DNA of 42,526 bases from Melioribacteraceae bacterium (lineage in GTDB: Bacteria > Bacteroidota > Ignavibacteria > Ignavibacteriales > Melioribacteraceae): contig JAOADJ010000047.1 in the NCBI GenBank assembly GCA_026417375.1, positions 1 through 42,526 on the forward strand. Reading direction: 5' to 3'. Under the pieces are notes generated by a model that worked only from the letters and a program-made list of their open reading frames with translations, had not been told where the DNA came from and searched no databases. The translations under genes and the position numbers were made by a program. Positions 9,942 through 23,950 of this stretch are shown one piece after another (position 1 is the first letter of the stretch; the number at the start of each line of letters is the position of its first letter).

Positions 9942-11531
9942 ATGAAAAAAATATTGATTGTTTTAATATTCTCTTTATTAAATAATATTTCTTTTGCAAC
10001 TGAAATTATAGTAAAGCCCGAGTTGCAAAAAGTTAAAGTATTTTTAACATCGGCTGAAATTAAGCAAACAGCAAAAGTTAAACTTGAAAATGGAATTAAC
10101 GAAATTGTGCTGACTGGAATTGCAAATAATATTGATAGAAACAGTATAAATATTTCAGGATTTGGTGATGGAATTATTATTACCATTGTTCAAAGATTTG
10201 ATTATTTAAGAGAAGGATCACAATTACCTGAAATTCAAAAACTGCAAAAAAAGTTAGATGAACTAAATTCTCTTTTAATGAAACAACAAAATGAAGATGA
10301 GGTGTTAAAGTATCAAATAGAATTTTTAATGGGGAATAAAAACATTAAAAATGAAAAGACCGGTTTAAATATTTCTGAACTTCAAAAATTTTCAGATTAC
10401 TTCACAAAAAAATTAACAGAGATAAAAAATAAAATGCTTGAAAATAATTTGGAAATCAAAACAACTCAAAATGAAATCCAAAAAATAAAAAAGCAATTAG
10501 ATGAACTTAATAGTCAATCAAATAAACCAACTAATGAAATTGTTGTTACAGTTTCAGCAAAAAAAGATGGACAATTTCAAATTAATTTAAGTTATATAAT
10601 GTTAAATGCTGGTTGGAGACCTTTTTATAATATTTATACTGATAACATAAACACAAAAGCAAAGTTAAACTATATTGCAAATGTTTGGCAAAATTCCGGT
10701 TTTGATTGGAATGATGTTGAAATTTCTTTATCAACAAGAAATCCCAATAGAAACAATTCCAAACCCGAATTAAATCCATGGTATTTAAATTTTTTTAATC
10801 CAATTTTAGGTAGAGAATTAAAAAGCAGTTTATATAAAGCTGTTACAATGGATCAAAATGCACAAGCATTAGCCGAACCGGAAATGCAAACAATGTCTGA
10901 TTATTTTGAAGTTAATGAAAACCAACTTTCAATTGAATTTACACCAAACATTAAATTTAATATTCCAAGTGATAATAAACCTCACTCTATATCATTAAAA
11001 GATGCTACCTTAAATTCATCTTACCAGTATTATGCAGTTCCTAAATACGATGAAAACGCTTTCCTTGTAATGAAAATTTTTAATTGGGATGAATTAAACC
11101 TTTTACCTGGTGAAGCAAATGTTTTTTTTGAAAATACTTTTGTTGGAAAAACATACTTAAATCCTGTTAATACAAAAGATACCTTGTTTGTTTCATTAGG
11201 TCGCGATGAAAATATTATAGTTAACAGAAAACAACTTAAAGATTTTACCGAAGAAAAATTTTTGAGTAAAGATGTTGAAAGAACATACAGTTATGAAATT
11301 GTAATTAAAAATGTTAAAAAAACACAAATTAATTTAATAGTTGAAGATCAATTTCCAATTTCACAACAGGAAGATATAATAGTTAAATTAAAGGAAAGTG
11401 ACGGTTCAAAAGTTAATTATGAAAATGGTTCGTTAGAATGGAAATTAAATCTTAAACCGAATGATACAATCACTAAAAAATTTTCGTTTAGTGTACGTTA
11501 TCCAAAAGATAAAAACATTCAGGGATTATAA
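9942..11531 (+). CDS. exported DUF4139/DUF4140 (MuiA-like) protein
   Basis: 529 aa with a signal peptide of about 19 residues (ILIVLIFSLLNNISFA). An N-terminal DUF4140-like domain (about 25-95) is followed by a heptad-rich coiled coil (about 75-180, lacking Pro) and a DUF4139-type domain (about 190-525) with the typical LSYIMLNAGWRPFYNIY and VEISLSTRNP segments. The family is widespread, exported and of unknown biochemical role; one member was described as a mucoidy inhibitor. GGAG lies eight bases before the ATG. It is a single gene, convergent with the sugar operon and only 17 bases from its end. Confidence 0.85.
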   Translation: MKKILIVLIFSLLNNISFATEIIVKPELQKVKVFLTSAEIKQTAKVKLENGINEIVLTGIANNIDRNSINISGFGDGIIITIVQRFDYLREGSQLPEIQKLQKKLDELNSLLMKQQNEDEVLKYQIEFLMGNKNIKNEKTGLNISELQKFSDYFTKKLTEIKNKMLENNLEIKTTQNEIQKIKKQLDELNSQSNKPTNEIVVTVSAKKDGQFQINLSYIMLNAGWRPFYNIYTDNINTKAKLNYIANVWQNSGFDWNDVEISLSTRNPNRNNSKPELNPWYLNFFNPILGRELKSSLYKAVTMDQNAQALAEPEMQTMSDYFEVNENQLSIEFTPNIKFNIPSDNKPHSISLKDATLNSSYQYYAVPKYDENAFLVMKIFNWDELNLLPGEANVFFENTFVGKTYLNPVNTKDTLFVSLGRDENIIVNRKQLKDFTEEKFLSKDVERTYSYEIVIKNVKKTQINLIVEDQFPISQQEDIIVKLKESDGSKVNYENGSLEWKLNLKPNDTITKKFSFSVRYPKDKNIQGL

Positions 11532-11548: not shown

Positions 11549-12313
11549 TTATTTCTTGAAACTTCTAAAAGCAAATAGAAATTGCTTTAAAAAATTTTCC
11601 GGGAAAAATGTTTTCAAACCATAAACTTCAGCTTTTTCGTTTGGTTGAAATGCTGTTTTAAAAAGCCAGTCCCAAATTGCAAGTTTAGTTGCAAAATTTC
11701 TGTTTCTACCTTTTCCTGTAGTGTGATGAATTCTATGCATTTCGGGTCCGTTAATTATTTTTTGAAGCCAACCCGTTTTAACATTTATGTTTGAATGAAT
11801 ATACATTCCCCACACAGCACTGATCACACCTTTATAAGCTATTACTTCAGGTGGTGAACCCAATAATACAATTGGTAAAAATTCAACTGTTTGATTAATT
11901 AATATTTCAAAAGCATGGGAACGAGAACCTGAAAGCCAATCTACTTTTTTTGTAGAATGGTGAGCTTCGTGTAAACGCCATAAATATTTATTGCTGTGCT
12001 GAAAACGATGCATCCAATAAATATAAAAGTCGTGTGTAATTGTAAAAAAAATAAGTTGAATTAATATAGGTAGATCAGAAAATAATTTTAATCTTGATAA
12101 TACGGTTAAGTTATCAATGTAATTAATAATAAATGTGAAAATTATAATACCAAGAATATAGCTTTGGGCTATAGTGTAAAGAGCAAAATCATTAAAAAAA
12201 CCTTCACGAAAAACTTTCTGACCACTGTTGTATGGAAAGATTCTTTCAAGAATAATTAATACAAGTGCAGAAATAGTAATTATTGAATAAGAAATAATTT
12301 CATATTCTTTCAT
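11549..12313 (-). CDS. sterol desaturase / fatty acid hydroxylase superfamily membrane protein
   Basis: 254 aa with about four membrane segments (9-23, 45-65, 82-97, 143-172). The eight-histidine di-iron set is present: H94-DFYIYWM-H102, H102-RFQ-H106, H115-EAHH (H118, H119), then H193-RIHH (H196, H197). The superfamily uses O2 and a di-iron centre to hydroxylate or desaturate lipids and related substrates. Its ATG overlaps the stop of the NeuB-like gene (ATGA), so it is translationally coupled to the sugar operon and is its last gene. It may modify the lipid that carries the glycan, or the glycan itself; both are inference. Confidence 0.88.
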   Translation of the reverse strand: MKEYEIISYSIITISALVLIILERIFPYNSGQKVFREGFFNDFALYTIAQSYILGIIIFTFIINYIDNLTVLSRLKLFSDLPILIQLIFFTITHDFYIYWMHRFQHSNKYLWRLHEAHHSTKKVDWLSGSRSHAFEILINQTVEFLPIVLLGSPPEVIAYKGVISAVWGMYIHSNINVKTGWLQKIINGPEMHRIHHTTGKGRNRNFATKLAIWDWLFKTAFQPNEKAEVYGLKTFFPENFLKQFLFAFRSFKK

Positions 12314-13203
12314 AAATAAATATTTTCAGCTTTAACTCTTCTTAATTTTTTTATACTTGATTTTTCGCTTTCATAAACTTTTTTAATTCCATCTCCTAAA
12401 GCTTTTTCAATATCACGAATATCTTTAACAAGTCTTTGTAAACCTACAATTTCAACTGAAGCAGCTTGATCTGTTCCCCACATTGCTCTGTCCAAAGTAA
12501 TATGTCTTTCCACAAAAGTTGCTCCTAAAGCAACAGCAGCTAAAGTTGGTGCTAATCCAGTTTCGTGTCCGCTGTATCCAATTGGAATTTCCGGAAACAT
12601 TTCTTTATAAGTTTGAATAACTTTTAAATTCAATTCTTCAACAGCACATGGATAAGTAGAAGTAGCCTGAGCGAGAAGTAAATTTTCTTTTCCTAAAAAA
12701 TTAATTGCATCTGTAATTTCTTCCATTGTGGACATTCCGGTTGAAAGCATAATTGGTCTTCCGGTTGATTTAATTTTTTTCAGTAGTTGAAAATCTGTTA
12801 ATGCAGCCGATGGAATTTTATAAGCAATTGGTTTGAATTTTTCTAAAAATTCTACGGCTTCTTCATCCCAGGGAGAAGCAAACCAATCAATACCTCTTTC
12901 TTTGCAGTAAGAATCAATTTCAAAATATTCTTCAAAACCAAATTCAACTTTATGGCGATATTCTAAGTAGGTAATTCTACCCCAGGGAGTATCTCTTTCA
13001 ATATTCCATTGATCTTTTGGAACACAAAGTTCAGGAGTTCTTTTTTGGAATTTTACAGCATCGCAGCCACAAAAAATTGCAGCATCTATTAATTTTTTTG
13101 CAATATCAAGTGAACCGTTATGGTTTATTCCAATTTCTGCAATTATATAAATTGGTTCACCGTCTCCAATATATCTTTTCCCAACTTTAACTTTTGCTTT
13201 CAT
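12310..13203 (-). CDS. NeuB-family PEP-condensing sugar acid synthase lacking the C-terminal SAF domain
   Basis: 297 aa. The NeuB TIM barrel is intact: AEIGINHNGS near residue 22, GCDAVKFQKR, DWFASPWDEEAVEFL, KIPSAAL, IMLSTGMSTMEEI, PIGYSGHETGL, FVERHITLDRAMWGTDQAAS. Canonical NeuB, SpsE and LegI have about 340-350 aa with a C-terminal SAF/antifreeze domain that closes the active site across the dimer. Here the chain stops just after ...KLRRVKAENIYL, where that domain would begin. The family condenses phosphoenolpyruvate with an aldose such as ManNAc or a 6-phosphate. The gene lies one base after the KdsC-like gene, which may dephosphorylate its product. The actual acceptor sugar is unknown. 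Confidence 0.88.
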   Translation of the reverse strand: MKAKVKVGKRYIGDGEPIYIIAEIGINHNGSLDIAKKLIDAAIFCGCDAVKFQKRTPELCVPKDQWNIERDTPWGRITYLEYRHKVEFGFEEYFEIDSYCKERGIDWFASPWDEEAVEFLEKFKPIAYKIPSAALTDFQLLKKIKSTGRPIMLSTGMSTMEEITDAINFLGKENLLLAQATSTYPCAVEELNLKVIQTYKEMFPEIPIGYSGHETGLAPTLAAVALGATFVERHITLDRAMWGTDQAASVEIVGLQRLVKDIRDIEKALGDGIKKVYESEKSSIKKLRRVKAENIYL

Positions 13204-13204
13204 T

Positions 13205-13735
13205 TTATCCTTTCTTCTTTTTTAATTTAGAATCAATAATAATTTCTGCTAATTCTCTGAACGCTCCGTTTCCACCTTTGTTATCTAAAATAATATCACA
13301 AATTTTTTTAACATGTTTCATTGCATCATTAGGACAAGCACTTAATCCAACTTTCTTTATAATTTCAATGTCGTTAGTATCATCGCCAATAAAAGCAACT
13401 TCACTTGCTTTAAGATTTTTTCTTTCAAGAATTTCATCAAGAATTTTTTCCTTTTCAAAAATTCCAAGATATAATTCTTCAATTTTTAATTTCTTAGCAC
13501 GCATAAATACAATGTCAGTATTTTCTCTTGTAACAATTCCGGTTTCAACATCAACAAGTTTTCTTAATCTTTCAACACCCATTCCATCGCGAATTGAAAA
13601 TCTTTTTAACTCTTCACCTTTAGCCGAATAATAAACACCTGTATCAGTTAAAACACCATCAACATCTGTCAAAAGCAACTTTATTTTTGATGCTTTTTTA
13701 AAAATATCTTTTTCTGAAAATTTTTTTGATTTCAT
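13205..13735 (-). CDS. KdsC-like HAD phosphatase (3-deoxy-sugar acid 8/9-phosphatase type)
   Basis: 176 aa, the size of KdsC (about 180 aa) without a cap domain. HAD motif I is DVDGVLTD (nucleophile D24, acid D26), and the family signature KRFSIRDGMGVERLRK follows. Motif II-III includes TRENTDI, and motif IV is FIGDDTNDIEIIKKVG. KdsC releases phosphate from KDO-8-P; relatives act on KDN-9-P and Neu5Ac-9-P. Position between the SDR and NeuB genes (9-base and 1-base gaps) argues for dephosphorylating the product of the NeuB-like enzyme, implying a phosphorylated acceptor sugar. Confidence 0.9.
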   Translation of the reverse strand: MKSKKFSEKDIFKKASKIKLLLTDVDGVLTDTGVYYSAKGEELKRFSIRDGMGVERLRKLVDVETGIVTRENTDIVFMRAKKLKIEELYLGIFEKEKILDEILERKNLKASEVAFIGDDTNDIEIIKKVGLSACPNDAMKHVKKICDIILDNKGGNGAFRELAEIIIDSKLKKKKG

Positions 13736-13744
13736 TTTATTCCT

Positions 13745-14548
13745 TTAAATTGTTGTCCAGCCGCCATCTACAATTAAGTTTGAACCTGTCATGTAAGAAG
13801 AAGCATCGCTTGCAAGAAAAATTAAAGCACCTTTGTAATCGTTTGGTTGAGCCATTCTTCCAAGCAAGGTTTTTGATGAATATTTTTTAACAAAAAAATC
13901 ATCTTGATTATTTTCAACACCACCCGGTGATAGTGAATTTACTCTAACACCATCTTTTCCCCAATATGCAGCAAGGTATTTTGTAAACATTAACACACCA
14001 CCTTTTGTCGCTGAGTATGCAGGTGGTTTATAAAAATTTTGTGTACCATCTTCTTTTTGATATAAAGTTTGATCAGGTGCGACAATTCCATATGTTGATG
14101 CAATATTAATTATACTTCCTTTTTTTTGTTTTGCCATTTCAAAACCAAAAACCTGAGAGCAAAGAAAAACTCCTGTTAAATTAACAGCAACTGATTTTTG
14201 CCATAGTTCTAACGGATAATTTTCAAATTTTGATTGTTCTGTTGCAGCTTTTGGATTCTCGAACATATCATTGATTGCTGCATTATTAACAAGAATATCA
14301 ATGCGTCCAAATTTTTCAATTATTTTGTTTTTAGCATCAATAATTGATTCTTTGTTTGTAACATCTAAATAAATTCCTAATGATTCTGTCTGAAGTGTGT
14401 TTGCATATTCAGTTACTAAAGTTTTATCTAAATCTGCCACAACAACATTTGCACCTGCTTCACTTAATGCTTTGCAATGTTCTTTTCCTATTAATCCCAT
14501 TGCACCAGTTACAATTGCTACTTTATTTTTTAATGAAAATAATTCCAT
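13745..14548 (-). CDS. short-chain dehydrogenase/reductase in the sugar operon
   Basis: 267 aa classical SDR. The cofactor motif is TGAMGLIG (14-21) with D39 after the second strand (VVVADLD), which favours NAD(H). NNAA spans 88-91, and the catalytic set is S151, Y178, K182 (YSATK). An insertion-like stretch between Ser and Tyr (155-175) fits SDRs acting on sugars in nonulosonate-type clusters. C-terminal SPGGVENNQ and YMTGSNLIVDGGWT complete the fold. It probably oxidises or reduces a hydroxyl/keto group of a sugar intermediate in this pathway. The gap to the aminotransferase gene upstream is 27 bases. Confidence 0.9.
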   Translation of the reverse strand: MELFSLKNKVAIVTGAMGLIGKEHCKALSEAGANVVVADLDKTLVTEYANTLQTESLGIYLDVTNKESIIDAKNKIIEKFGRIDILVNNAAINDMFENPKAATEQSKFENYPLELWQKSVAVNLTGVFLCSQVFGFEMAKQKKGSIINIASTYGIVAPDQTLYQKEDGTQNFYKPPAYSATKGGVLMFTKYLAAYWGKDGVRVNSLSPGGVENNQDDFFVKKYSSKTLLGRMAQPNDYKGALIFLASDASSYMTGSNLIVDGGWTTI

Positions 14549-14575
14549 GATTAAATTTTCTTTATAGTTAGCAAA

Positions 14576-15910
14576 TTATTTTTTTACAGGTTTCATATTA
14601 AAATTATCAACTTTTCTAAAAACAGGTTCAACAGGTTTACCTTTTAATGTTTCGTTTAATTTATTTTCATCAATTGCTTTTTTAAGAACAAACATTGATT
14701 CTTCAAGAGCTTGTAATGTATATTCAACATCATTATCGGAATGAGAAAAACTCATATTAAAAAATCCTTGCCAAAGAATTCCACGTTTAATCATTTCTTG
14801 TTGCATAATTGATTTTTGAATTAATGGATCTCCAAACTTTTCATTGAATGTTGCCATTGAACGCCAGTTATAACCAATTGCTTCTGTTGAATTTAGCCCA
14901 ACTGATTTAGCAATATTATTATATCCATCTTTTAATTTTTTCCCTTGAGAAAACAAAAATTGTGGAACATCTTTTTGTTTTAGTTCTTCTATAGTAGCTT
15001 TTGTTGCTGCAAGTGAAAGTGCTTCACCCCCAAATGTTGTAAAGAAGAAAATATCTTCATTTGCAAGTTGCATAATTTCTTTACGACCAGTCAAAACTGA
15101 AATAGGCATTCCATTAGCAATTGCTTTTGAATATGTTGCAAGGTCCGGAGTAATTCCAAAAAATTCTTGTGCGCCGCCTAATGCCATTCTAAACCCAGTC
15201 CACATTTCATCAAAAATCAAAACTATATTTTTTTCATTGCAAAGTTCTGCAACCTTATGAAGAAAATTATCTTTTGGTTCATGAAAAACAACGGGTTCTA
15301 AAATTACTGCAGCTACATCATCATCAATTGAATTTTTTAATGAATCAATATCATTATAATTAAATGTAAAACTAATTGATTGGACTGCTTGCGGAATTCC
15401 GTTATTGCGGGAAGTAACAGCAATATACCAATCGTGCCAACCATGATAACCACAACAAAGAATTTTATTTTTGCCGGTATAAGCTCTTGCTAAACGAACA
15501 GCAGCACTTGTTACATCCGCACCAGTTTTACTATAACGAATCATTTCAGCATTCGGAATAATTTTGTTAATCATTTCAGCAACTTCAACTTCAAGTGGGT
15601 GCATCATTGAAAATGTAATTCCATCTTCAAGTTGTTTTCTAATTGCTTCATCAACTTTATCATAAGCATAGCCAAGAGAAAGAGGACCAACTGCCATCAT
15701 ATAATCTATATATTCATTACCATCAACATCCCAAACGTGTGAACCTTTTCCTTTCAATAAATATTTTGGTGCAATTCCTTTAACCCATTGAGTTGGACCT
15801 TTAGCTAAAGTTTGTGTAACTGAAGGAATTAAGTTCAATGCTTTTTCGTACAATTGATTTGAATTTTCTATAGAAGGAAAATCGTTTTTTAATGAAATTT
15901 TGTTTGGCAT
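14576..15910 (-). CDS. class III PLP aminotransferase, glutamate-1-semialdehyde aminomutase-like
   Basis: 444 aa. The fold-type I class III pattern is clear: IRYSKTGADVTSAAVRLARA (PLP phosphate site, about 125-143), YHGWHDW (155-161), ILEPV, IFDEMWTGFRM (D234) and Schiff-base lysine K262 in YSKAIANGMPIS. The closest named family is HemL, but that makes a tetrapyrrole precursor and is not found in sugar operons. Relatives in polysaccharide loci aminate a keto or aldehyde sugar. Placed between the transketolase halves and the SDR, it most likely installs an amino group on the sugar precursor. Substrate not determinable. Confidence 0.88.
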   Translation of the reverse strand: MPNKISLKNDFPSIENSNQLYEKALNLIPSVTQTLAKGPTQWVKGIAPKYLLKGKGSHVWDVDGNEYIDYMMAVGPLSLGYAYDKVDEAIRKQLEDGITFSMMHPLEVEVAEMINKIIPNAEMIRYSKTGADVTSAAVRLARAYTGKNKILCCGYHGWHDWYIAVTSRNNGIPQAVQSISFTFNYNDIDSLKNSIDDDVAAVILEPVVFHEPKDNFLHKVAELCNEKNIVLIFDEMWTGFRMALGGAQEFFGITPDLATYSKAIANGMPISVLTGRKEIMQLANEDIFFFTTFGGEALSLAATKATIEELKQKDVPQFLFSQGKKLKDGYNNIAKSVGLNSTEAIGYNWRSMATFNEKFGDPLIQKSIMQQEMIKRGILWQGFFNMSFSHSDNDVEYTLQALEESMFVLKKAIDENKLNETLKGKPVEPVFRKVDNFNMKPVKK

Positions 15911-15919
15911 TTATTACAC

Positions 15920-16828
15920 CTAAAAATTTTTTTCTTCAAAATAGTTTTCAATTCTTATTGCTATTTGATTAAATGTAAATCCTTCATATTCAAGAATATC
16001 ATTTAATAAAGCTGGTTTAAACCATTTATTCATTAATGCAAGTGGTAATACATCGGCAGTAATTTTATTCTTTAAAAGTATTTCAGCAAGAATAGAAAAT
16101 AATCCACCGGTAATAAAATGATCTTCTAAAGTTACAATTAATTTACATTGTTTAACTGCTTTCAGTATTTCAGATTCATCAATTGGTTTTAATGTTCTAA
16201 GATTTAAGAGACGAACAGAATAACCTTTCTTTTCCAAAATTTCTTTTGCTTGATAAGCTTGATTAAAAAGCATTCCATAAACTAAAATTGCAATATCATT
16301 TCCATTTCCAAAAACCTCAGATTTACCAATTTCAAATTCATTATGTTCAACTATGTTAGGAAGATTTAAGTAACGAATGTAAAAAGGATTTTCATGTTGA
16401 AGAACTTTTTTAATTCCAATATTAAAATCCTGAATATCAGCAGGGCAGAAAACATTAATGTTTGGAATGCCACGCATGATTGAAACATCTTCTATAGCCT
16501 GATGAGTTGGACCATTTGCTTCGGATAAAAAACCAGCTACAGAACCCATAATTTTTACTGGTAAATTTGCAATTCCAACATCAGTTCTGATAAATTCAAA
16601 AGCTCGCATTGTTAAAAAAGTTGCAAGTGCATGAACAATTGGTATTCTACCTCTTAAAGCTAATCCGGCAGCCATTCCAATCATTGTTTGTTCTGTAATT
16701 CCTGTATCAATAAAATTATTTTTTATTTGATTAGTAATTCCACGCATTGCTGCACGGTTTTCTGCAGTCATTACAAAATATCTATTATCATTTGATATTA
16801 ATTCTATTAATAGTTCTTCGTAATTCAT
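15920..16828 (-). CDS. transketolase C-terminal subunit (split transketolase)
   Basis: 302 aa covering the pyrimidine-binding and C-terminal domains: TGITEQTMIGMAAGLALRG, ALATFLTMRAFEFIRTD, GPTHQAIEDVSIMRGIPN, then the C-terminal domain with VRLLNLRTLKPIDE and TLEDHFITGGLFS. The N half is encoded immediately upstream, with a TAATG overlap (one shared base), so both subunits are made together and should form a heterotetramer. Split transketolases move a two-carbon ketol unit between sugars using thiamine diphosphate. In this operon the pair probably builds or remodels the carbon skeleton of the special sugar rather than serving the pentose phosphate pathway (inference from context). Confidence 0.9.
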   Translation of the reverse strand: MNYEELLIELISNDNRYFVMTAENRAAMRGITNQIKNNFIDTGITEQTMIGMAAGLALRGRIPIVHALATFLTMRAFEFIRTDVGIANLPVKIMGSVAGFLSEANGPTHQAIEDVSIMRGIPNINVFCPADIQDFNIGIKKVLQHENPFYIRYLNLPNIVEHNEFEIGKSEVFGNGNDIAILVYGMLFNQAYQAKEILEKKGYSVRLLNLRTLKPIDESEILKAVKQCKLIVTLEDHFITGGLFSILAEILLKNKITADVLPLALMNKWFKPALLNDILEYEGFTFNQIAIRIENYFEEKNF

Positions 16829-17685
16829 TATCTCACCATTAAAGTTTTTGAAATAAGATTTGCTTTTGCATTACCATGCAATTCATTTATTAATTCTTCA
16901 ATTTCTTTTTGAGTAAAATTAACAAACCAACGGTCGGCTCTTTTTTCTATGCTCGGTAAACCTTTTCCTCTAACAGTTTCTGCAATTATTACACTTATTT
17001 TATTTTGCTCAAACGGGAAAGATTTAAAAGCATCTTCCATTTGTTCAAAATTATGTCCATCAATTTTTTTAACAGCACAATTAAATGATTCAAACTTTTT
17101 ATCAATCGGTTCTAATGGAATTAATTCTTCAGTAGGAAAATTAGCCTGAAACTGATTTCTATCTACAACGACTAAAATGTTATCCAGTTTATAAGCATTT
17201 GCAACTAATAATCCTTCCCACATCGAACCTTCATTAAGTTCGCCATCTCCAACAATTACAACAATTTTGTTATTAATATTTTTAAGTTTGCAATCGAGTG
17301 CTACACCAGCTGCAACAGAAAAATTATGTCCGAGTGAACCAGAATGAAATTCTATTCCCGGAATATTTCTGTTGGGATGCCAATAAATAAAATCATTTGT
17401 TTTTAAGTGATTTTTTAATCTGTCTTTTTCAAGCCAGCCAAGTTCTACAAACGTTCCATATAAAGCTGGTACATCGTGACCTTTAGATAAAAAAAGATAA
17501 TCACGATTTTCATTGTTTAAAGTTTCTTTTGTAATGTTTAAAAATTCATTATAAAGATAGACAGTTAAATCTGCACAGGAAAGTGAAGCTCCGATAAAGC
17601 AACCTCCGTTGCCACTCATATTAATAATATGTTCTCTTACTTTTAAAGCTGTTTGTTGAAGATTAGTAAGTTTTTCTTTTGTCAT
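16828..17685 (-). CDS. transketolase N-terminal subunit (split transketolase)
   Basis: 285 aa, the thiamine-diphosphate diphosphate-binding half. SKGHDVPALY (67-76), SGSLGHNFSVAAGVAL (115-130), and the ThDP motif starting GDGELNEGSMWEG (146-158) and ending at N177 in VVDRNQ are all present. Its ATG overlaps the stop of the cytidylyltransferase gene (ATGA) and its stop overlaps the start of the C half, so it is tightly coupled. Full transketolase is about 650 aa in one chain; the two halves here total 587. It functions only with the neighbouring subunit. Confidence 0.9.
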   Translation of the reverse strand: MTKEKLTNLQQTALKVREHIINMSGNGGCFIGASLSCADLTVYLYNEFLNITKETLNNENRDYLFLSKGHDVPALYGTFVELGWLEKDRLKNHLKTNDFIYWHPNRNIPGIEFHSGSLGHNFSVAAGVALDCKLKNINNKIVVIVGDGELNEGSMWEGLLVANAYKLDNILVVVDRNQFQANFPTEELIPLEPIDKKFESFNCAVKKIDGHNFEQMEDAFKSFPFEQNKISVIIAETVRGKGLPSIEKRADRWFVNFTQKEIEELINELHGNAKANLISKTLMVR

Positions 17686-18473
17686 AATTTTTTTGATTTA
17701 TACTCCTGAATATTTTTAAGTTCATTTAAATGGTTATCATACCAATATGTACCAATAAACTTTTCATTTAGTTTTAATAAATCTGGTTTTTCATTTAACA
17801 AATTTAAAATGTCTTTAAGTAAGAAAAATTTATTTTTTGGATACAATTCTTCAAAAATTTTTTTTATTAAATAATAATCTTCAATATAATCTAAAGTAAA
17901 ACGTAGAGAAGTTGAAAGATCTAAACCTGTTTCCCAAACAACATTTCCAATTTTAAATAAATCACTATTTTCCCAGAAGTATGGAGTAGTGTGTTCACGT
18001 TCATAATTTTTTGTAGCTTCTTTCCATGCTTTTTCTAAAGCATTGAATGAAAAAATTTCAACATCATTTCCATCGGGGTAAGTTGCCGGATGTAAATTAC
18101 TTACATAATCAAAATTAGTTTCTAAATAATAATTTATAACCTTATCAATTATAGTTGGATCAATTAAAGGGCAATCACTTGGAATTTTAACAACTGCTTC
18201 GGCATTATATTTTAAAGCAACCTGATAATGTCGATCGAGCAAATCATTTAAACTTCCCCGAAAGCATTCAATTGAATTTTCTGAACATAATTTTTCTATC
18301 TGATCATCTTCGGGATTAGTTGATGTTGCTATAACAAGGTTACCAATCAATTTAGAACATTTAACTCTTTCAATCATTCTTAATAAAACAGGTTTTTCTA
18401 AAATTGGTAATAAAACTTTCCCTCTTAATCTTGAAGATGAAAGACGTGCCTGAATTACAGTAACAATATGCAT
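17682..18473 (-). CDS. SpsF-type cytidylyltransferase (CMP-sugar acid synthetase-like)
   Basis: 263 aa. The N-terminal nucleotide-binding loop is VIQARLSSSRLRGKVLLPI (6-24). IPSDCPLIDP (metal/nucleotide region) and ATYPDGNDVEIFSF follow, as in SpsF and related NTP-transferases of the CMP-NeuAc synthetase clan. It is expected to activate the 2-keto sugar acid as a CMP conjugate. The C-terminal part (about 190-263) lacks the phosphatase or aminotransferase fusion seen in some homologues. Start and stop both overlap neighbours (TAATG with the first gene, ATGA with transketolase N), so the enzyme is made in step with them. Confidence 0.87.
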   Translation of the reverse strand: MHIVTVIQARLSSSRLRGKVLLPILEKPVLLRMIERVKCSKLIGNLVIATSTNPEDDQIEKLCSENSIECFRGSLNDLLDRHYQVALKYNAEAVVKIPSDCPLIDPTIIDKVINYYLETNFDYVSNLHPATYPDGNDVEIFSFNALEKAWKEATKNYEREHTTPYFWENSDLFKIGNVVWETGLDLSTSLRFTLDYIEDYYLIKKIFEELYPKNKFFLLKDILNLLNEKPDLLKLNEKFIGTYWYDNHLNELKNIQEYKSKKL

Positions 18474-19483
18474 TATGTTGTTCTCAAACTAAATTCATTT
18501 ATAATAAATTCAGAATTAAAGTTGGGATTTTCCAGCAAATATAAACCAACTCTTGCTATTCTTTCAGCAGAAGTTCCATTGTTTTGGATTGGTAATAATT
18601 TTTTTAGTTCATCAACATTAAAGTATGAATATACCTCTTTACCTAAAGCTAATCCAACAAAAGAAGTTGAAGAATATTGTGTAATTAATATATCACAGTT
18701 GGCTATCATTTCATTTGTGTTTCCTTCTGTAAAGACTAAAGAACCGGGTGCATATTTGTTAATTTCCTTAATTGCTCTATCAAATTTTTCATTAGGATGA
18801 AGTTTAAATATTATCTGTTTTCCATTTGCAATTTCGACACATTGTTTAATAAACTTTTTTCTGTTTTCAAATTTAAAAGTTTCTCTTGCGTCTGATGTGC
18901 ATACCAGAACATAATTTTTATGTTGAAAATTATTTATAAAATATTTTTTCAGGTCGTCAAAATTTGGAATACCAGTAACTACAATTTTATTTGGTGAAAC
19001 ATTTTTTCTTTTGATAAAAAAATCTTTATAACCATATGAAGCAACACAAAAGAAGTCATAAAGATTAGACATTCCCATAGTTGATGTGCTTGCTAACCAT
19101 CTTGGTAGTTTAAAATACTTTACCAAATAAAACATCAAATTTTCAGGGTCCGTCATTCCTTCTTGAACAAGTATTACTTTTTTATTTCTAATGTTTTTAG
19201 GATAAATTAAATCAGCGCAGGTATAAACTAAGTCGTAATCATTTTTTTCTCCACGGTAATCAATTTTGAGTTTATTATCGGTTAAATATTTTTCAGTGTT
19301 TTTTCTAAATGCCCCATTTAGTATTGAGAAATTTAAATAACCTTTGCTTACTACATAATTAATTATTCCATCTGCATAATATGGTGTGAAATAACAATCA
19401 TAATTATCAAAAAACTTTGAAATCTGGTGCATCATTGTTGTTTGATTAAGAGAACCACAAATAAATAAAATTTTCTTCTTCAT
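18473..19483 (-). CDS. GT-B-fold glycosyl/glycerophosphotransferase-like protein, first gene of sugar operon
   Basis: 336 aa, no signal peptide. A Rossmann-like N-terminal half starts KKKILFICGS. The C-terminal half has KIVVTGIPNFDDL, IIFKLHPNEKF and CDILITQYSSTSFVGLALGK. That pattern is shared by CDP-glycerol glycerophosphotransferases and by UDP-GlcNAc 2-epimerase-like GT-B proteins. It could therefore transfer the CMP-activated sugar, or be a divergent epimerase standing in for NeuC. I favour a transferase because the Q-YSS-T-S motif matches the former better. It heads the nine-gene operon; no clear Shine-Dalgarno is visible. Functional call uncertain, fold call good. Confidence 0.65.
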   Translation of the reverse strand: MKKKILFICGSLNQTTMMHQISKFFDNYDCYFTPYYADGIINYVVSKGYLNFSILNGAFRKNTEKYLTDNKLKIDYRGEKNDYDLVYTCADLIYPKNIRNKKVILVQEGMTDPENLMFYLVKYFKLPRWLASTSTMGMSNLYDFFCVASYGYKDFFIKRKNVSPNKIVVTGIPNFDDLKKYFINNFQHKNYVLVCTSDARETFKFENRKKFIKQCVEIANGKQIIFKLHPNEKFDRAIKEINKYAPGSLVFTEGNTNEMIANCDILITQYSSTSFVGLALGKEVYSYFNVDELKKLLPIQNNGTSAERIARVGLYLLENPNFNSEFIINEFSLRTT

Positions 19484-19830: not shown

Positions 19831-21174
19831 ATGAATATATCCAAAACATTAAAATCGTTTAAAGGCGGTGTCCATCCAAAAGAATTCAAATTTTTAACCG
19901 AAGAAAAATCGTTCGAAATATTACCAACTCCTAAAGAAATATTCATTCCTATCAATCAGAATCTTGGAAAACCACCTAAAATTTTAGTTAAGAAAGGGGA
20001 TGAAGTAAAATGTGGTGATTTAATTGCAGAAGCAGATGGTTTTATCTCTTCTCCGATTCATAGCTCTGTTTCTGGTAAGGTTATTAAAATTTCTAAAGAA
20101 ATAAATGTAAATGGATTTCCGGTTCAAACTATTATTATCCAATCGAATGAAAATGAAGAAAATAATTTTTTACCGAAATTAAATTTGGAAAATGTTACTG
20201 CTGAAGAAATAATTAATAGAGTAAAAGAAGCTGGAATTGTTGGTTTGGGTGGTGCTTCGTTTCCAACTCATGTAAAAATTACTCCACAAAAAGATAAACC
20301 TATAGATTTAGTTTTAATAAATGCTTGTGAATGTGAACCATATTTAACCAGAGATTATAGATTGATTCTTGAGAAAACAAATGAATTGATTAACGGATTG
20401 AAATTAATAATGAAAGCATTGAATGTAAGAAAAGGAATAATTGGAATTGAAGACAACAAACCACTTGCAATTGAAAAGTTAAATAATGTTATTAAAAATT
20501 TTGAAGAAATAGAAGTAAAAGTTGTTAAAACAAAATATCCTCAGGGTGCCGAAAAAATGCTTATTAAAGCAATTACAGGCAGAGAAGTTCCTCCTAAAAA
20601 ATTACCATTTGATGTTGGAGTAGCAATTCAAAATGTTGCAACTGCTATTTCTATTTATGAAGCTGTAGTTGAAGGTATTCCAATGATTACTTCTACATTA
20701 ACTGTTTCTGGTTTAGGAATTAATGAACCAAAAAATTTAATTGTTAAAAATGGAACACCATTAAAAAACATAATAGAATTTTGTGGAGGAATTCGTGAAG
20801 ATTCTGTAAAGATTGTTGTTGGTGGACCTATGATGGGAGTATCACAATTCGATTTAAATGTACCGGTAATGAAAGCAACTTCTGGAATTTTAGTTTTAAC
20901 TAAAGATGAAGTTAATAGTTTTAATGAGACTAATTGCTTAAGGTGTGGAATGTGTGTTGATGTTTGTCCTCTGAATTTAATACCAACAAGATTAGCAAGA
21001 TTTTCTCAATTAGAACGATATGAAGATGCTAATTTATTTGGTATAACAAATTGTATGGAATGTGGAACTTGTGCTTTTACTTGTCCTGCAAATATTCAAT
21101 TAGTTCAATGGATAAAATTAGGTAAACAGAAAGTAATTCAAATGTTAAATCAAAAATCAGCTCAATTAAATTAG
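19831..21174 (+). CDS. rnfC: RnfC, electron-transfer subunit of Rnf ion-translocating complex
   Basis: 447 aa. The N-terminal RnfC domain opens with FKGGVHPKE and a barrel-sandwich region (KKGDEVKCGDLIAEADGFISS). The NADH/FMN-binding SLBB-like core includes GLGGASFPTHVK and NACECEPYLTRDYRL. Two 4Fe-4S sites follow: C369/C372/C375/C379 and C408/C411/C414/C418. It accepts or donates electrons at NAD(H) on the cytoplasmic side of the complex. First gene of the operon, six bases before rnfD. The G-rich AAAGGGG upstream is 18 bases from the ATG, with a small hairpin between. The start is chosen because it gives the usual N-terminus and no in-frame ATG, GTG or TTG lies upstream. Confidence 0.96.
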   Translation: MNISKTLKSFKGGVHPKEFKFLTEEKSFEILPTPKEIFIPINQNLGKPPKILVKKGDEVKCGDLIAEADGFISSPIHSSVSGKVIKISKEINVNGFPVQTIIIQSNENEENNFLPKLNLENVTAEEIINRVKEAGIVGLGGASFPTHVKITPQKDKPIDLVLINACECEPYLTRDYRLILEKTNELINGLKLIMKALNVRKGIIGIEDNKPLAIEKLNNVIKNFEEIEVKVVKTKYPQGAEKMLIKAITGREVPPKKLPFDVGVAIQNVATAISIYEAVVEGIPMITSTLTVSGLGINEPKNLIVKNGTPLKNIIEFCGGIREDSVKIVVGGPMMGVSQFDLNVPVMKATSGILVLTKDEVNSFNETNCLRCGMCVDVCPLNLIPTRLARFSQLERYEDANLFGITNCMECGTCAFTCPANIQLVQWIKLGKQKVIQMLNQKSAQLN

Positions 21175-21180
21175 AATTTT

Positions 21181-22146
21181 ATGAACAACACAACACCTAT
21201 TAAGAATTACAAGTTAGAATTATCTGCTGCACCACACATTCATTCAAAGTGGTCAACAAAAAAAGCAATGTGGTTGGTTATTCTTTCTCTCGTTCCTGTT
21301 TTGATTTCCTCAATTATATTTTTTGGGTTAAAGCAACTTTCTATAATATCAGTAAGTGTTGCATTTTGCTTGTTAACAGAATTAACAATAAAAAAGTTAA
21401 GGAAAAAAGAAGTTACACTTGATGATGGAAGTGCAATTATAACCGGGCTATTATTAGCTTTTATTTTACCACCTAATTTTTCATTGTTTGCTACAGCTAT
21501 TGGAGCTATTTTCTCAATTGGTATAGCAAAAGAATTATTCGGAGGTTTAGGTTTTAACATTTTTAATCCGGCATTGGCTGGAAGAGCATTTTTGCAAGCT
21601 GCATATCCTGTTTCAATTACAACATGGACTAAACCAAATTATGATGTTGATACAATAACTTCTGCTACTCCATTAGCAGCATATAAATTTGATAAAATAT
21701 CAACAGATCTCTCTAGTTTATTTTGGGGAAATGTAAGTGGTTCGTTAGGTGAAACTTCTGCGTTAGCAATTTTAATAGGAGGGTTATTTTTAATTTTTAT
21801 TGGAGTTGTGAATTATAGAATTCCATTAGCAATGATCTTATCACTTATTTTTTTCTCAGCAATTTTTTGGATTATTGATCCTTTCAAATATCAAAATCCA
21901 ATTTTTCATCTTCTAGCAGGTGGGTTTTTATTTGGAACATTTTTTATGGCAACCGATTGGGTTACTTCTCCAATAACTTCCAAAGGAATGTGGATTTATG
22001 GAATATTGATTTCTTTTTTAATTGTACTAATTAGAAATTTTGGTGGATTGCCTGAAGGTGTAATGTATGCAATATTAATTATGAATTCTTTAGTTCCCGC
22101 GATAAATAGATTTACAGTTCCCAAAATTTTTGGTGAAAAGAAATGA
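21181..22146 (+). CDS. rnfD: RnfD, membrane subunit with covalent FMN
   Basis: 321 aa with about eight to ten membrane segments. The flavinylation motif is SATPL with T163 (in DTITSATPLAAYK), the threonine that carries FMN by phosphoester linkage in this family. GGLGFNIFNPALAGRAFL and ATDWVTSPITSKG are family landmarks shared with NqrB. It is part of the transmembrane electron and ion path. It overlaps rnfG by four bases (ATGA). Confidence 0.96.
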   Translation: MNNTTPIKNYKLELSAAPHIHSKWSTKKAMWLVILSLVPVLISSIIFFGLKQLSIISVSVAFCLLTELTIKKLRKKEVTLDDGSAIITGLLLAFILPPNFSLFATAIGAIFSIGIAKELFGGLGFNIFNPALAGRAFLQAAYPVSITTWTKPNYDVDTITSATPLAAYKFDKISTDLSSLFWGNVSGSLGETSALAILIGGLFLIFIGVVNYRIPLAMILSLIFFSAIFWIIDPFKYQNPIFHLLAGGFLFGTFFMATDWVTSPITSKGMWIYGILISFLIVLIRNFGGLPEGVMYAILIMNSLVPAINRFTVPKIFGEKK

Positions 22147-22703
22147 AAAAAATAATTCATATTATTTCTACTTTGACTTTAATAGGTGTTGTCATAGGAG
22201 CAATTTTATCTTTTGTAAATAATTGGGCAACTCCTTTAATCGAATTAAACAAGAAAAAAGAAACTGAAAAAGCAGTTTATCTTGTAAATCCACTTGGTAA
22301 AAAAAATGAAAAAGTAAAAGCAAACGGAGAAATATTTAAAGTTTTTGATGAAGCAGATAATTTACTTGGTTATTCCTTTGTTTGTGAAGGAAATGGATTC
22401 CAGGGAAAAATAAGAATAATGGTTGGAGTTGATAAGAATTTAGAAAAAATTATTTCTTATGAAGTTCTTGAGCAAAGTGAAACACCCGGATTAGGTACAA
22501 AAATTTTAGATGACCCTTTTAAAAAACAGTTTAACAATTTATTTGCAATACCAAGGATTGAGTGGATTAAAGGAAAAGCTCCTTCAAAACCAAATGAAGT
22601 TCAGACAATAACAGGAGCTACAATTTCTTCTGTTGCATTAGTAAATATTATAAATTCTGGTTTAGAGAATATGAGAAAATTGAAGGAGAAAAATTTATTA
22701 TGA
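22143..22703 (+). CDS. rnfG: RnfG, periplasmic FMN-binding subunit
   Basis: 186 aa. One N-terminal membrane anchor (about 5-26) and a periplasmic FMN-binding domain. LEQSETPGLGT (109-119) and the attachment site TITGATISS (156-163, FMN on T160) match the S/T-G-A-T-x-S motif recognised by ApbE. The apbE gene three genes downstream supplies that enzyme. The gene overlaps rnfE by four bases. Confidence 0.95.
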   Translation: MKKIIHIISTLTLIGVVIGAILSFVNNWATPLIELNKKKETEKAVYLVNPLGKKNEKVKANGEIFKVFDEADNLLGYSFVCEGNGFQGKIRIMVGVDKNLEKIISYEVLEQSETPGLGTKILDDPFKKQFNNLFAIPRIEWIKGKAPSKPNEVQTITGATISSVALVNIINSGLENMRKLKEKNLL

Positions 22704-23377
22704 ATAAAAAATCATATTCTTATGAATTTGTAAAAGGTATTTGGGAAATTAATCCAATCTTTAAACAAATTTTAGGTATGTGTCCAACTTTAGCAGTTAC
22801 AGTTTCAGTAATAAATGGAATTGCTATGGCATTAGCTACAACATTTGTTTTGGTGTTTTCAAGTTTTTTGATTTCTCTTATAAGAAAGCTTATTCCTAAT
22901 CAGGTTAGAATTGCAGCATACATTATAATAATTGCATCGTTTGTTACTATAACCGATTTAGTAATGAAAGCAAAATTTCCTGAAATGTCTAAATCGTTAG
23001 GGCCATTTATTCCACTTATTGTTGTCAACTGTATTATACTTGGTAGAGCAGAAGCTTTTGCTTCAAAAAACAATATATTAAAATCTTTGCTTGATGCTTT
23101 GGGAAACGGATTAGGATTTTTAATTGGATTAATATTAATAAGTTCAATTAGAGAATTATTAGGTTCAAGTTCAATTTTAGGTTTTAAAGTATTACCAAAT
23201 TCTTTTGATCCATTAATTGTAATGATTTTACCAGCCGGAGCTTTTATAACATTTGGTTTGTTAATGGGTTTTTTCAATTCACTATCATTAAGAAAAAAAG
23301 AGTCTGAAAAAGAAAAGTTAATTAAGAAATATTCTGATAAGCTTATAAAGTCTTCCAATGAATTAGTGGAGAATTAG
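22700..23377 (+). CDS. rnfE: RnfE, membrane subunit
   Basis: 225 aa with about six membrane segments. It starts with the family pattern GIWEINPIFKQILGMCPTLAVT and contains PLIVVNCIILGRAEAFA, in which the conserved Cys residues (C28, C111) lie in half-helices that with RnfA bind a membrane iron-sulfur centre. The hydrophilic tail (SLRKKESEKEKLIKKYSDKL) is somewhat long. The stop codon directly abuts the rnfA start. Confidence 0.95.
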   Translation: MNKKSYSYEFVKGIWEINPIFKQILGMCPTLAVTVSVINGIAMALATTFVLVFSSFLISLIRKLIPNQVRIAAYIIIIASFVTITDLVMKAKFPEMSKSLGPFIPLIVVNCIILGRAEAFASKNNILKSLLDALGNGLGFLIGLILISSIRELLGSSSILGFKVLPNSFDPLIVMILPAGAFITFGLLMGFFNSLSLRKKESEKEKLIKKYSDKLIKSSNELVEN

Positions 23378-23950
23378 ATGGAACTATTTATAATATTTTT
23401 TTCTGCTGCTTTGATTAATAATTTTGTGTTGTCATACTTTCTTGGAATTTGTCCATTTATAGGTGTATCAAATAAAACTTCCTCAGCTTTATCAATGGGA
23501 ATGGCAACAACTTTTGTAATGGTTATTACTTCAATAGTTAGTTGGCTTCTTTGGAATTTAATTCTTGTACCATTTCACATAGAATACTTACAAATTCCAT
23601 CTTTTATTCTTGTTATTGCTTCATTGGTACAATTTGTAGAAATGGTTATTAAAAAAGTAAGTCAGCCTCTTTATCGTGCTTTGGGAATTTTTCTTCCTTT
23701 GATTACAACTAACTGTGCAATATTAGGATTAGCATTATTAGCTTCAATGAGAAATTATTCGTTGATTGAAAGCTTAGTATTTGGATTTGGTGCAGGTGTA
23801 GGTTTTACTTTAGCTTTATTTATAATGAGTGGAATCAGAGAAGAGTTAGAATTAACTGATGTTCCTTTACCATTTCGAGGAGCACCAATTACATTAATAA
23901 CTGCAGGGCTATTGGCTTTAGCATTTATGGGTTTTGCAGGAATGATATAA
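23378..23950 (+). CDS. rnfA: RnfA, membrane subunit
   Basis: 190 aa with six membrane segments. Family landmarks are NNFVLSYFLGICPFIGVS near the N-terminus (C25) and LPLITTNCAILG in mid-chain (C112), the Cys pair that with RnfE binds the intramembrane 2Fe-2S centre. GIREELELTDVPLPFRG near the C-terminus is typical. It is one base ahead of apbE. Confidence 0.95.
   Translation: MELFIIFFSAALINNFVLSYFLGICPFIGVSNKTSSALSMGMATTFVMVITSIVSWLLWNLILVPFHIEYLQIPSFILVIASLVQFVEMVIKKVSQPLYRALGIFLPLITTNCAILGLALLASMRNYSLIESLVFGFGAGVGFTLALFIMSGIREELELTDVPLPFRGAPITLITAGLLALAFMGFAGMI

Follow-up and report, generated by a model that had tools for sequence, protein, structure and literature searches.

A conserved operon of Ignavibacteria and Chlorobi with a candidate pathway for a CMP-activated amino sugar acid

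Which sugar acid would be made by an operon that combines a NeuB-type synthase with a transketolase, an oxidoreductase and an aminotransferase, and at what step would it receive its amine? The question is raised by nine minus-strand genes at positions 11549-19483 of a 42,526-nucleotide contig of a Melioribacteraceae bacterium (JAOADJ010000047.1; this whole stretch is called here the window), which belongs to a 2.8 Mb genome (G000). In the direction of transcription they encode a GT-B protein, probably a glycosyltransferase (GT), an SpsF-type cytidylyltransferase, the N- and C-terminal subunits of a transketolase (TK-N and TK-C), a class III aminotransferase (AT3), a short-chain dehydrogenase/reductase (SDR), a haloacid dehalogenase-type phosphatase (HAD), NeuB, and a di-iron membrane protein of the FA_hydroxylase family (FAH). 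An initial annotation of this DNA had described the locus as an operon for a CMP-activated 2-keto sugar acid. Its open reading frames (ORFs) coincide exactly with ours, and Pfam and NCBIfam back its family assignments for all nine genes, that of GT being the weakest.

It is well supported that the product is a CMP-activated 2-keto sugar acid of unassigned identity. Beyond that, the preferred reading, to which we give a probability of about 0.58, is that the sugar acid is a 2-keto-3-deoxy one bearing an amine, that it is transferred to a component of the envelope, which may be a lipid, and that amination follows the action of NeuB and HAD. NeuB would condense an aldose phosphate with phosphoenolpyruvate (PEP), and HAD would strip the phosphate from the product. 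Between HAD and CMP activation, a hydroxyl close to the tail of the dephosphorylated sugar acid would be oxidised by SDR, and AT3 would convert the carbonyl to an amine, following the logic of KdnB and KdnA with enzymes of unrelated families. The cytidylyltransferase would then form the CMP-sugar and GT would transfer the sugar. The transketolase may be an optional tailoring part that provides a sugar phosphate or else edits the tail, and FAH, given oxygen, would modify the lipid partner. The initial annotation knew of no characterised pathway with these genes; indeed, no published description of the set was found in the open-access literature, subscription papers being outside this coverage.

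Recurrence of the gene set and its Chlorobiaceae version

The set, which the initial annotation suggested looking for in other genomes, recurs in the genus and across the phylum, far beyond chance. Four of five other genomes of the genus have it in the same order, G003 without FAH and G005 with GT cut by the contig end; it was not found on the contigs of G004. The phylum was sampled by 296 genomes, in which orthologs were counted by identity: GT in 110 (at least 49% identity; none of 110 dropped), NeuB in 111 (at least 62%; one of 112 dropped, G111 at 44%), AT3 in 44 (at least 55%, the next match being at 41%; 14 of 58 matching genomes, all at 41% or less, dropped) and TK-N in 35 (at least 57%; 21 of 56, at 39% or less, dropped). 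All 110 genomes with GT carry NeuB, and only G223 has NeuB without GT; all 44 genomes with AT3 carry both GT and NeuB, and all 35 with TK-N carry AT3. By our count, the genomes with GT and NeuB span 14 families. The hypergeometric P for the co-occurrence of these two genes, 3.5e-82, takes no account of relatedness and should not be read as a true probability.

The genes are also linked physically. No more than 10 kb separates AT3 from NeuB in 38 of the 44 genomes; in the remaining six, five of them from family f37, the genes are present and dispersed. SDR orthologs were found in all eight tested genomes of families f37 and f22. Among 42 AT3 loci that were fetched, SpsF occurs in 37, NeuB in 36, SDR and GT in 35 each, FAH in 32, TK-C in 30, TK-N in 29 and HAD in 27, in a tally where the ORF caller overlooks genes overlapped by longer spurious frames. 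A scan of named genomes gave 533 confirmed AT3 relatives, of which the best 80 were used, some of these 80 loci being on the same contigs as loci of the phylum sample; they included 46 loci of at least 18 kb, with NeuB in 43, SpsF and GT in 41 each, SDR in 39, HAD in 34, TK-C in 33, and TK-N and FAH in 31 each. These best 80 contain records titled outside Bacteroidota, namely KSB1, Desulfobulbaceae, Nitrospirae, Myxococcota, Methylobacter and Methyloglobulus morosus KoM1. They are mostly metagenome-assembled genomes, in which misbinning is possible; the Methyloglobulus record is not titled as one. NeuB, HAD, SpsF and GT belong together as a back end, of which the initial annotation had named the first three, and Pfam finds no front-end family of the neuraminic (Neu), legionaminic (Leg) and pseudaminic (Pse) acid pathways among the nine genes, the GT-B protein being structurally NeuC-like.

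AT3 orthologs are missing from 66 of the 110 genomes with GT and NeuB. All but two of these 66 belong to one family (f24), which accounts for 64 of the 110 and which we take to be Chlorobiaceae, as the FMO protein is present in 7 of 7 tested genomes; Prevotella, our first guess, was dropped for this reason. The Chlorobiaceae genomes of the sample contain neither AT3 nor TK-N orthologs. SpsF orthologs were not found in seven tested genomes (one relative at 35% identity), nor SDR orthologs in 12 of 12 (one genome has a relative at 46%). HAD adjoins NeuB in all six Chlorobiaceae NeuB loci that were read. No FAH was seen in these six loci, whole genomes not having been searched for it. The GT loci, six of six read, share the order LPG_synthase_TM, GT, NeuA/PseF-like cytidylyltransferase, iron-containing alcohol dehydrogenase (Fe-ADH), DegT aminotransferase. 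The best match of the latter in PDB is the Kdo8N transaminase KdnA (5k8b, 277 bits; the next match has 165). This KdnA-like aminotransferase is present in 62 genomes (one of 63 dropped, G135 at 41%), within 6 kb of GT in 58. Genomes with AT3 (44) and with the KdnA-like gene (62) do not overlap at all and together make up 106 of the 110. In G118 and G161, where the KdnA-like match is absent, GT is near a contig end. The sister family f37 keeps the AT3 version, and probably the whole tailoring module was swapped in Chlorobiaceae, once.

As Fe-ADH and the KdnA-like gene replace SDR and AT3 in these six loci, the finished ulosonic acid would be the substrate of amination. NeuB (12310-13203, minus strand, 297 aa; PF03102, 9.5e-80 at residues 38-274) points in the same direction. 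The expected catalytic and metal-binding residues are invariant, their roles being presumably those of the Neisseria enzyme, to which the window protein was aligned. The six Chlorobiaceae sequences differ consistently from 44 others at six columns only, and these do not include E23, K51, Q53, K54, R55, K129, S154, Y184, H213, H234 or D245. Identical active-site positions under both modules suggest that the same NeuB serves both, the simplest case being a common substrate, and thus that the amine is added after NeuB.

AT3 (14576-15910, minus strand; Aminotran_3, 5.5e-50), of the glutamate-1-semialdehyde aminomutase type and predicted to aminate the oxidised sugar acid, has PRK06209 as its top NCBIfam model (399.5 bits against 486). 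It scores 252.8 bits with the HemL glutamate-1-semialdehyde aminomutase model TIGR00713, below the cut-off of 527.3. Residue K262, which by the family motif we take to be the lysine binding pyridoxal phosphate, is invariant in 17 members. SDR (13745-14548, minus strand; adh_short_C2, 2.8e-50) would oxidise the sugar acid ahead of amination.

Order of steps and alternative readings

The initial annotation had placed the transketolase, SDR and AT3 in front of NeuB, where they would build an amino-aldose phosphate to be extended by the latter. We consider this order unlikely, and probably wrong, as amination after NeuB fits better. It has precedents nevertheless: in the Neu, Leg and Pse pathways amines are added ahead of NeuB, in the ansamycin clusters for 3-amino-5-hydroxybenzoic acid (AHBA) a split transketolase, an aminotransferase and an oxidoreductase precede a PEP-condensing synthase, and in most of the operons considered here the transketolase adjoins AT3. 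However, the 64 Chlorobiaceae genomes have NeuB with unchanged active-site positions and no AT3, whereas no genome has AT3 without NeuB. Moreover, the replacement module holds a relative of KdnA, and the characterised KdnA, to judge from the name of the molecule, acts after ulosonate synthesis. Finally, the split transketolase is absent at the ortholog level from 9 of the 44 AT3 genomes (it is present in 35), so it does not build the acceptor of NeuB in every one of them.

The transketolase slot, which separates SpsF from AT3, is variable. It may contain the split pair, as in the window (TK-N, 16828-17685, Transketolase_N, 1.2e-23; TK-C, 15920-16828, Transket_pyr and Transketolase_C; both on the minus strand), a single transketolase of 656-673 aa (L172, L180, L185, L186), or nothing. 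Two forms of the enzyme in one slot imply that this position calls for the activity, which, to judge from the operons that lack it, is dispensable or supplied from elsewhere. Broken-up operons tend to separate GT-SpsF-TK-AT3 from SDR-HAD-NeuB-FAH (L076/L106 and L084). An apparent fusion of AT3 with SDR in L063 (940 aa) results from reading through an assembly gap of Ns.

Several observations weigh against amination after NeuB and HAD in the form proposed. The reading does not explain why a transketolase is present. The Chlorobiaceae Fe-ADH gives only 61.9 bits with KdnB (5k8c), the 25th of 27 matches, the best having 97. The NeuB-HAD pair of Chlorobiaceae is not linked to GT and the KdnA-like gene, and thus KdnA there could act on 3-deoxy-D-manno-oct-2-ulosonic acid (Kdo), although this is disfavoured by GT and NeuB occurring one to one. 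If the module was replaced once, as is probable, the 62 genomes do not count as independent of one another. HAD and FAH are not universal, being present in 34 and 31 of the 46 long loci from the best 80 relatives. Lastly, an AlphaFold2 model of the GT protein, a confident GT-B fold (pLDDT 90.3), is closer in VIA-align to NeuC/WecB epimerases (Z up to 18.2) than to TagF (14.8) and a polysialyltransferase (14.3), and 21 of 24 family members touch Epimerase_2 (best 2.5e-6).

The latter observations are the ground for a different view of the first gene (18473-19483, minus strand), that it encodes a NeuC-like 2-epimerase or hydrolase rather than a glycosyltransferase, giving the operon a hidden front end. 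The structural similarity is indeed higher with NeuC (5zlr, Z 17.9) than with TagF, although the structural matches taken together are tied among GT-B families, and the sequence evidence leans towards a transferase. The window protein scores 28.9 bits with Glyphos_transf (PF04464, 7.5e-7, residues 139-275 only), over the cut-off, and 17.7 bits with Epimerase_2, below it; its match to TIGR04396 (2.4e-12) is below the cut-off. In PDB the family profile matches nothing but the TagF-like polymerase Cps3D (E 0.00056), over an ITRYSS-type stretch, and the top Foldseek match of the model is a capsule multienzyme with CMP. QEG, KLHPNE and S271 are invariant in 24 members, and we take the KLHP to resemble the HP motif of CMP/CDP-using GT-B enzymes. 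Besides, a front-end hydrolase would leave the need for a phosphatase unexplained. A NeuC-like function is retained as a rival, though an improbable one.

The acceptor of NeuB bears on the remaining possibility, that the operon makes plain 2-keto-3-deoxynononic acid (KDN) or another known sugar acid, with SDR, AT3 and the transketolase serving a separate substituent or precursor. Within the phylum, L117:7869-11529 is probably a true KDN locus: there a 581 aa NeuB with, by eye, an N-terminal cytidylyltransferase-like stretch is beside a KDN-9-phosphate phosphatase (242.7 bits, over the NF058599 cut-off). The window NeuB shares with this synthase FQKR, GxxxY, Y79, R83 and E87, which the SAF-type NeuB of the genus lacks. 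The common residues favour a phosphorylated acceptor, and the acceptor is probably a sugar phosphate, perhaps a hexose 6-phosphate. The HAD protein (13205-13735, minus strand) had been called KdsC-like; this stands, as it passes TIGR01670 (152 bits, cut-off 107), and can be sharpened, since its top NCBIfam model is the KDN-9-phosphate phosphatase NF058599 (165 bits, cut-off 180). In spite of these two likenesses and of the phosphorylated intermediates through which KDN pathways run (PMC6200933), plain KDN is the least probable of the alternatives, because six scored members of the HAD group stay at 141-165 bits, under that cut-off, and AT3 is never without NeuB and GT in its 44 genomes and is usually close to NeuB. 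Replacement of the host Kdo pathway by the operon is ruled out, as a true KdsA is encoded elsewhere in 11 of 11 genomes tested (in G000 on contig C8; TIGR01362, over the cut-off).

Comparison with the neu, leg, pse and kdo families, another suggestion of the initial annotation, confirms the synthase as a NeuB family member and not KdsA, but leaves it under the cut-offs of both product-specific NeuB models. It scores 263.3 bits with the Neu5Ac/Leg synthase model TIGR03569 (cut-off 399.65), whose C-terminal part it lacks, and 218.9 bits with the pseudaminic acid synthase model TIGR03586 (cut-off 340.25); Pfam gives no match to the SAF domain. A SAF-less NeuB of known structure, 6ncs, was considered as a match and discarded, since the alignment has a gap over the window residues after FQK.

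Other NeuB genes occur in these genomes. G000 has a second, SAF-type NeuB, split between the end of C19 and the start of C53, with its own SpsF; its genus mate G001 has a matching separate cluster with a SAF-type NeuB and SpsF (L028:9039-14483), pseudaminic-like by eye. A second SAF-less NeuB, next to a metallophosphoesterase, stands outside the operon in G002, G003 and G051; the NeuB found in G004 is also this copy (L023:8810-9706, L025:8622-9524, L027:513-1433, L121:8179-9078). In G223, the genome with NeuB and no GT, NeuB is beside a 407 aa protein matching HAD (31%), an SDR (45%) and a GFO/IDH/MocA oxidoreductase (L116:6273-10214), with a NeuA-like match (31%) nearby.

Candidate acceptor and neighbouring genes

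Enzymes of the FA_hydroxylase family (PF04116) act on lipids, and the presence of FAH (11549-12313, minus strand; 6.6e-31), a putative lipid hydroxylase, hints at a lipid acceptor. Its His-rich motifs are intact in 18 members; its top NCBIfam model is the ornithine lipid hydroxylase OlsE (NF052566, 118.5 bits, far under the cut-off of 475). LPG_synthase_TM is encoded beside GT in six of six Chlorobiaceae loci, five loci of f37 and six AT3 loci (two of these being the same contig). An OlsF-like double acyltransferase is encoded in 19 loci (three pairs being the same contigs), a proximity biased by the fetching of loci around AT3 or NeuB; it also adjoins the second SAF-less NeuB of G002 and G003. 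An aminoglycosphingolipid of Chlorobium limicola, reported in 1991, is cited in PMC11762602; PMC6200933 mentions an algal sphingolipid linked to Kdn, and PMC10667739 a potential for sphingolipids in Ignavibacter. According to PMC12285230, Chlorobaculum tepidum makes lipooligosaccharide and Kdo. Given the LPG_synthase_TM and OlsF-like genes and the cited lipids, a lipid acceptor is reasonable, no more.

A much more specific proposal is unlikely to hold. In it, Ignavibacteria, Chlorobi and their partners in gene transfer would link a terminally aminated aldulosonic acid, not described before, directly to a membrane lipid, and the C. limicola aminoglycosphingolipid would be its counterpart in Chlorobi. 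Where the transketolase is present, SDR would form a ketone next to the terminal CH2OH, the transketolase would remove the last two carbons, and AT3 would aminate the new terminal aldehyde, so that the tail is shortened.

The remaining gene, spsF (17682-18473, minus strand; CTP_transf_3, 4.6e-31), probably encodes a CMP-ulosonate synthetase; the closest solved structure, 6oew, is named simply 'Cytidylyltransferase'. An SpsF protein in place of NeuA in a pseudaminic-type cluster is mentioned in PMC7371886. Successive genes of the operon, from FAH to GT, are separated by -4, +1, +9, +27, +9, -1, -4 and -1 bases (overlaps negative). The suggestion of a single transcript relies on this spacing and on conservation, as a consensus scan for promoter- and terminator-like sites gave no excess over shuffled sequence.

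A MuiA-family gene (DUF4139/DUF4140, 9942-11531) converges on the operon end and keeps this position in many relatives. On the other side, an RnfC-like gene, starting by similarity at 19831, is divergent to the operon across 347 bases; it and the following genes occupy 19831-23950, and several related genera also have RnfC as the neighbour. A small membrane protein resembling the SMR family by eye (about 110 aa; L071:5092-5424 and relatives) follows NeuB or FAH in 12 loci. Mirror-tree correlations, computed only on loci from the best 80 AT3 relatives, are not used as evidence, since co-inheritance could not be separated from species history: pairs of operon genes gave r of 0.50 to 0.85 (0 of 200 permutations), but the neighbouring MuiA gene gave 0.44 to 0.89. 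RnfC was uncorrelated with the operon genes (r -0.13 to 0.41; 9-11 loci).

Comparison with known systems

The operon would make a surface sugar conserved in Chlorobi and Ignavibacteria, and carried in other phyla too if the record names are right. Its comparison among genomes yields a testable pathway, as green sulfur bacteria combine the shared core with a different amination module, one of whose members is related to a characterised enzyme. If the pathway is true, two unrelated enzyme pairs have arrived at one solution for aminating an ulosonic acid, and a specific amino acid-sugar is predicted in organisms that can be grown, among which a glycolipid of broadly this type was named decades ago.

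The aminoshikimate (AHBA) clusters are similar in their split transketolase, aminotransferase, oxidoreductase and PEP-condensing synthase. However, the synthase there is a 3-deoxy-arabino-heptulosonate 7-phosphate (DAHP) synthase, and the window NeuB matches DAHP synthase models at only about 20 bits. With the Neu, Leg and Pse pathways the operon shares the NeuB family, a cytidylyltransferase and a putative GT-B transferase, but by Pfam it has no epimerase, dehydratase or N-acetyltransferase, and its NeuB is under both equivalog cut-offs.

The KDN pathway of Bacteroides thetaiotaomicron (BT1713-1715, from mannose 6-phosphate and PEP) is similar in its synthase, HAD phosphatase, cytidylyltransferase and FQKR and probably in its phosphorylated route, the KDN-type synthase compared here being that of L117 beside its over-cut-off phosphatase and not BT1714. 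Unlike that pathway, the window has a HAD under the NF058599 cut-off, a NeuB without SAF, and in addition an aminotransferase, SDR, transketolase and hydroxylase.

A parallel in logic is the Kdo8N pathway of Shewanella, where the oxidase KdnB (5k8c) and the transaminase KdnA (5k8b) act; the likeness would be that an ulosonic acid is oxidised and transaminated ahead of CMP activation. The Chlorobiaceae versions carry a relative of KdnA itself, whereas the window has SDR and Aminotran_3 proteins instead of KdnB and the DegT-type KdnA, and G000 gives no KdnA-like match at E 1e-80. The synthase of the window is NeuB-type and not KdsA, the cytidylyltransferase is SpsF and not KdsB, and the transketolase and FA_hydroxylase are additions of this operon.

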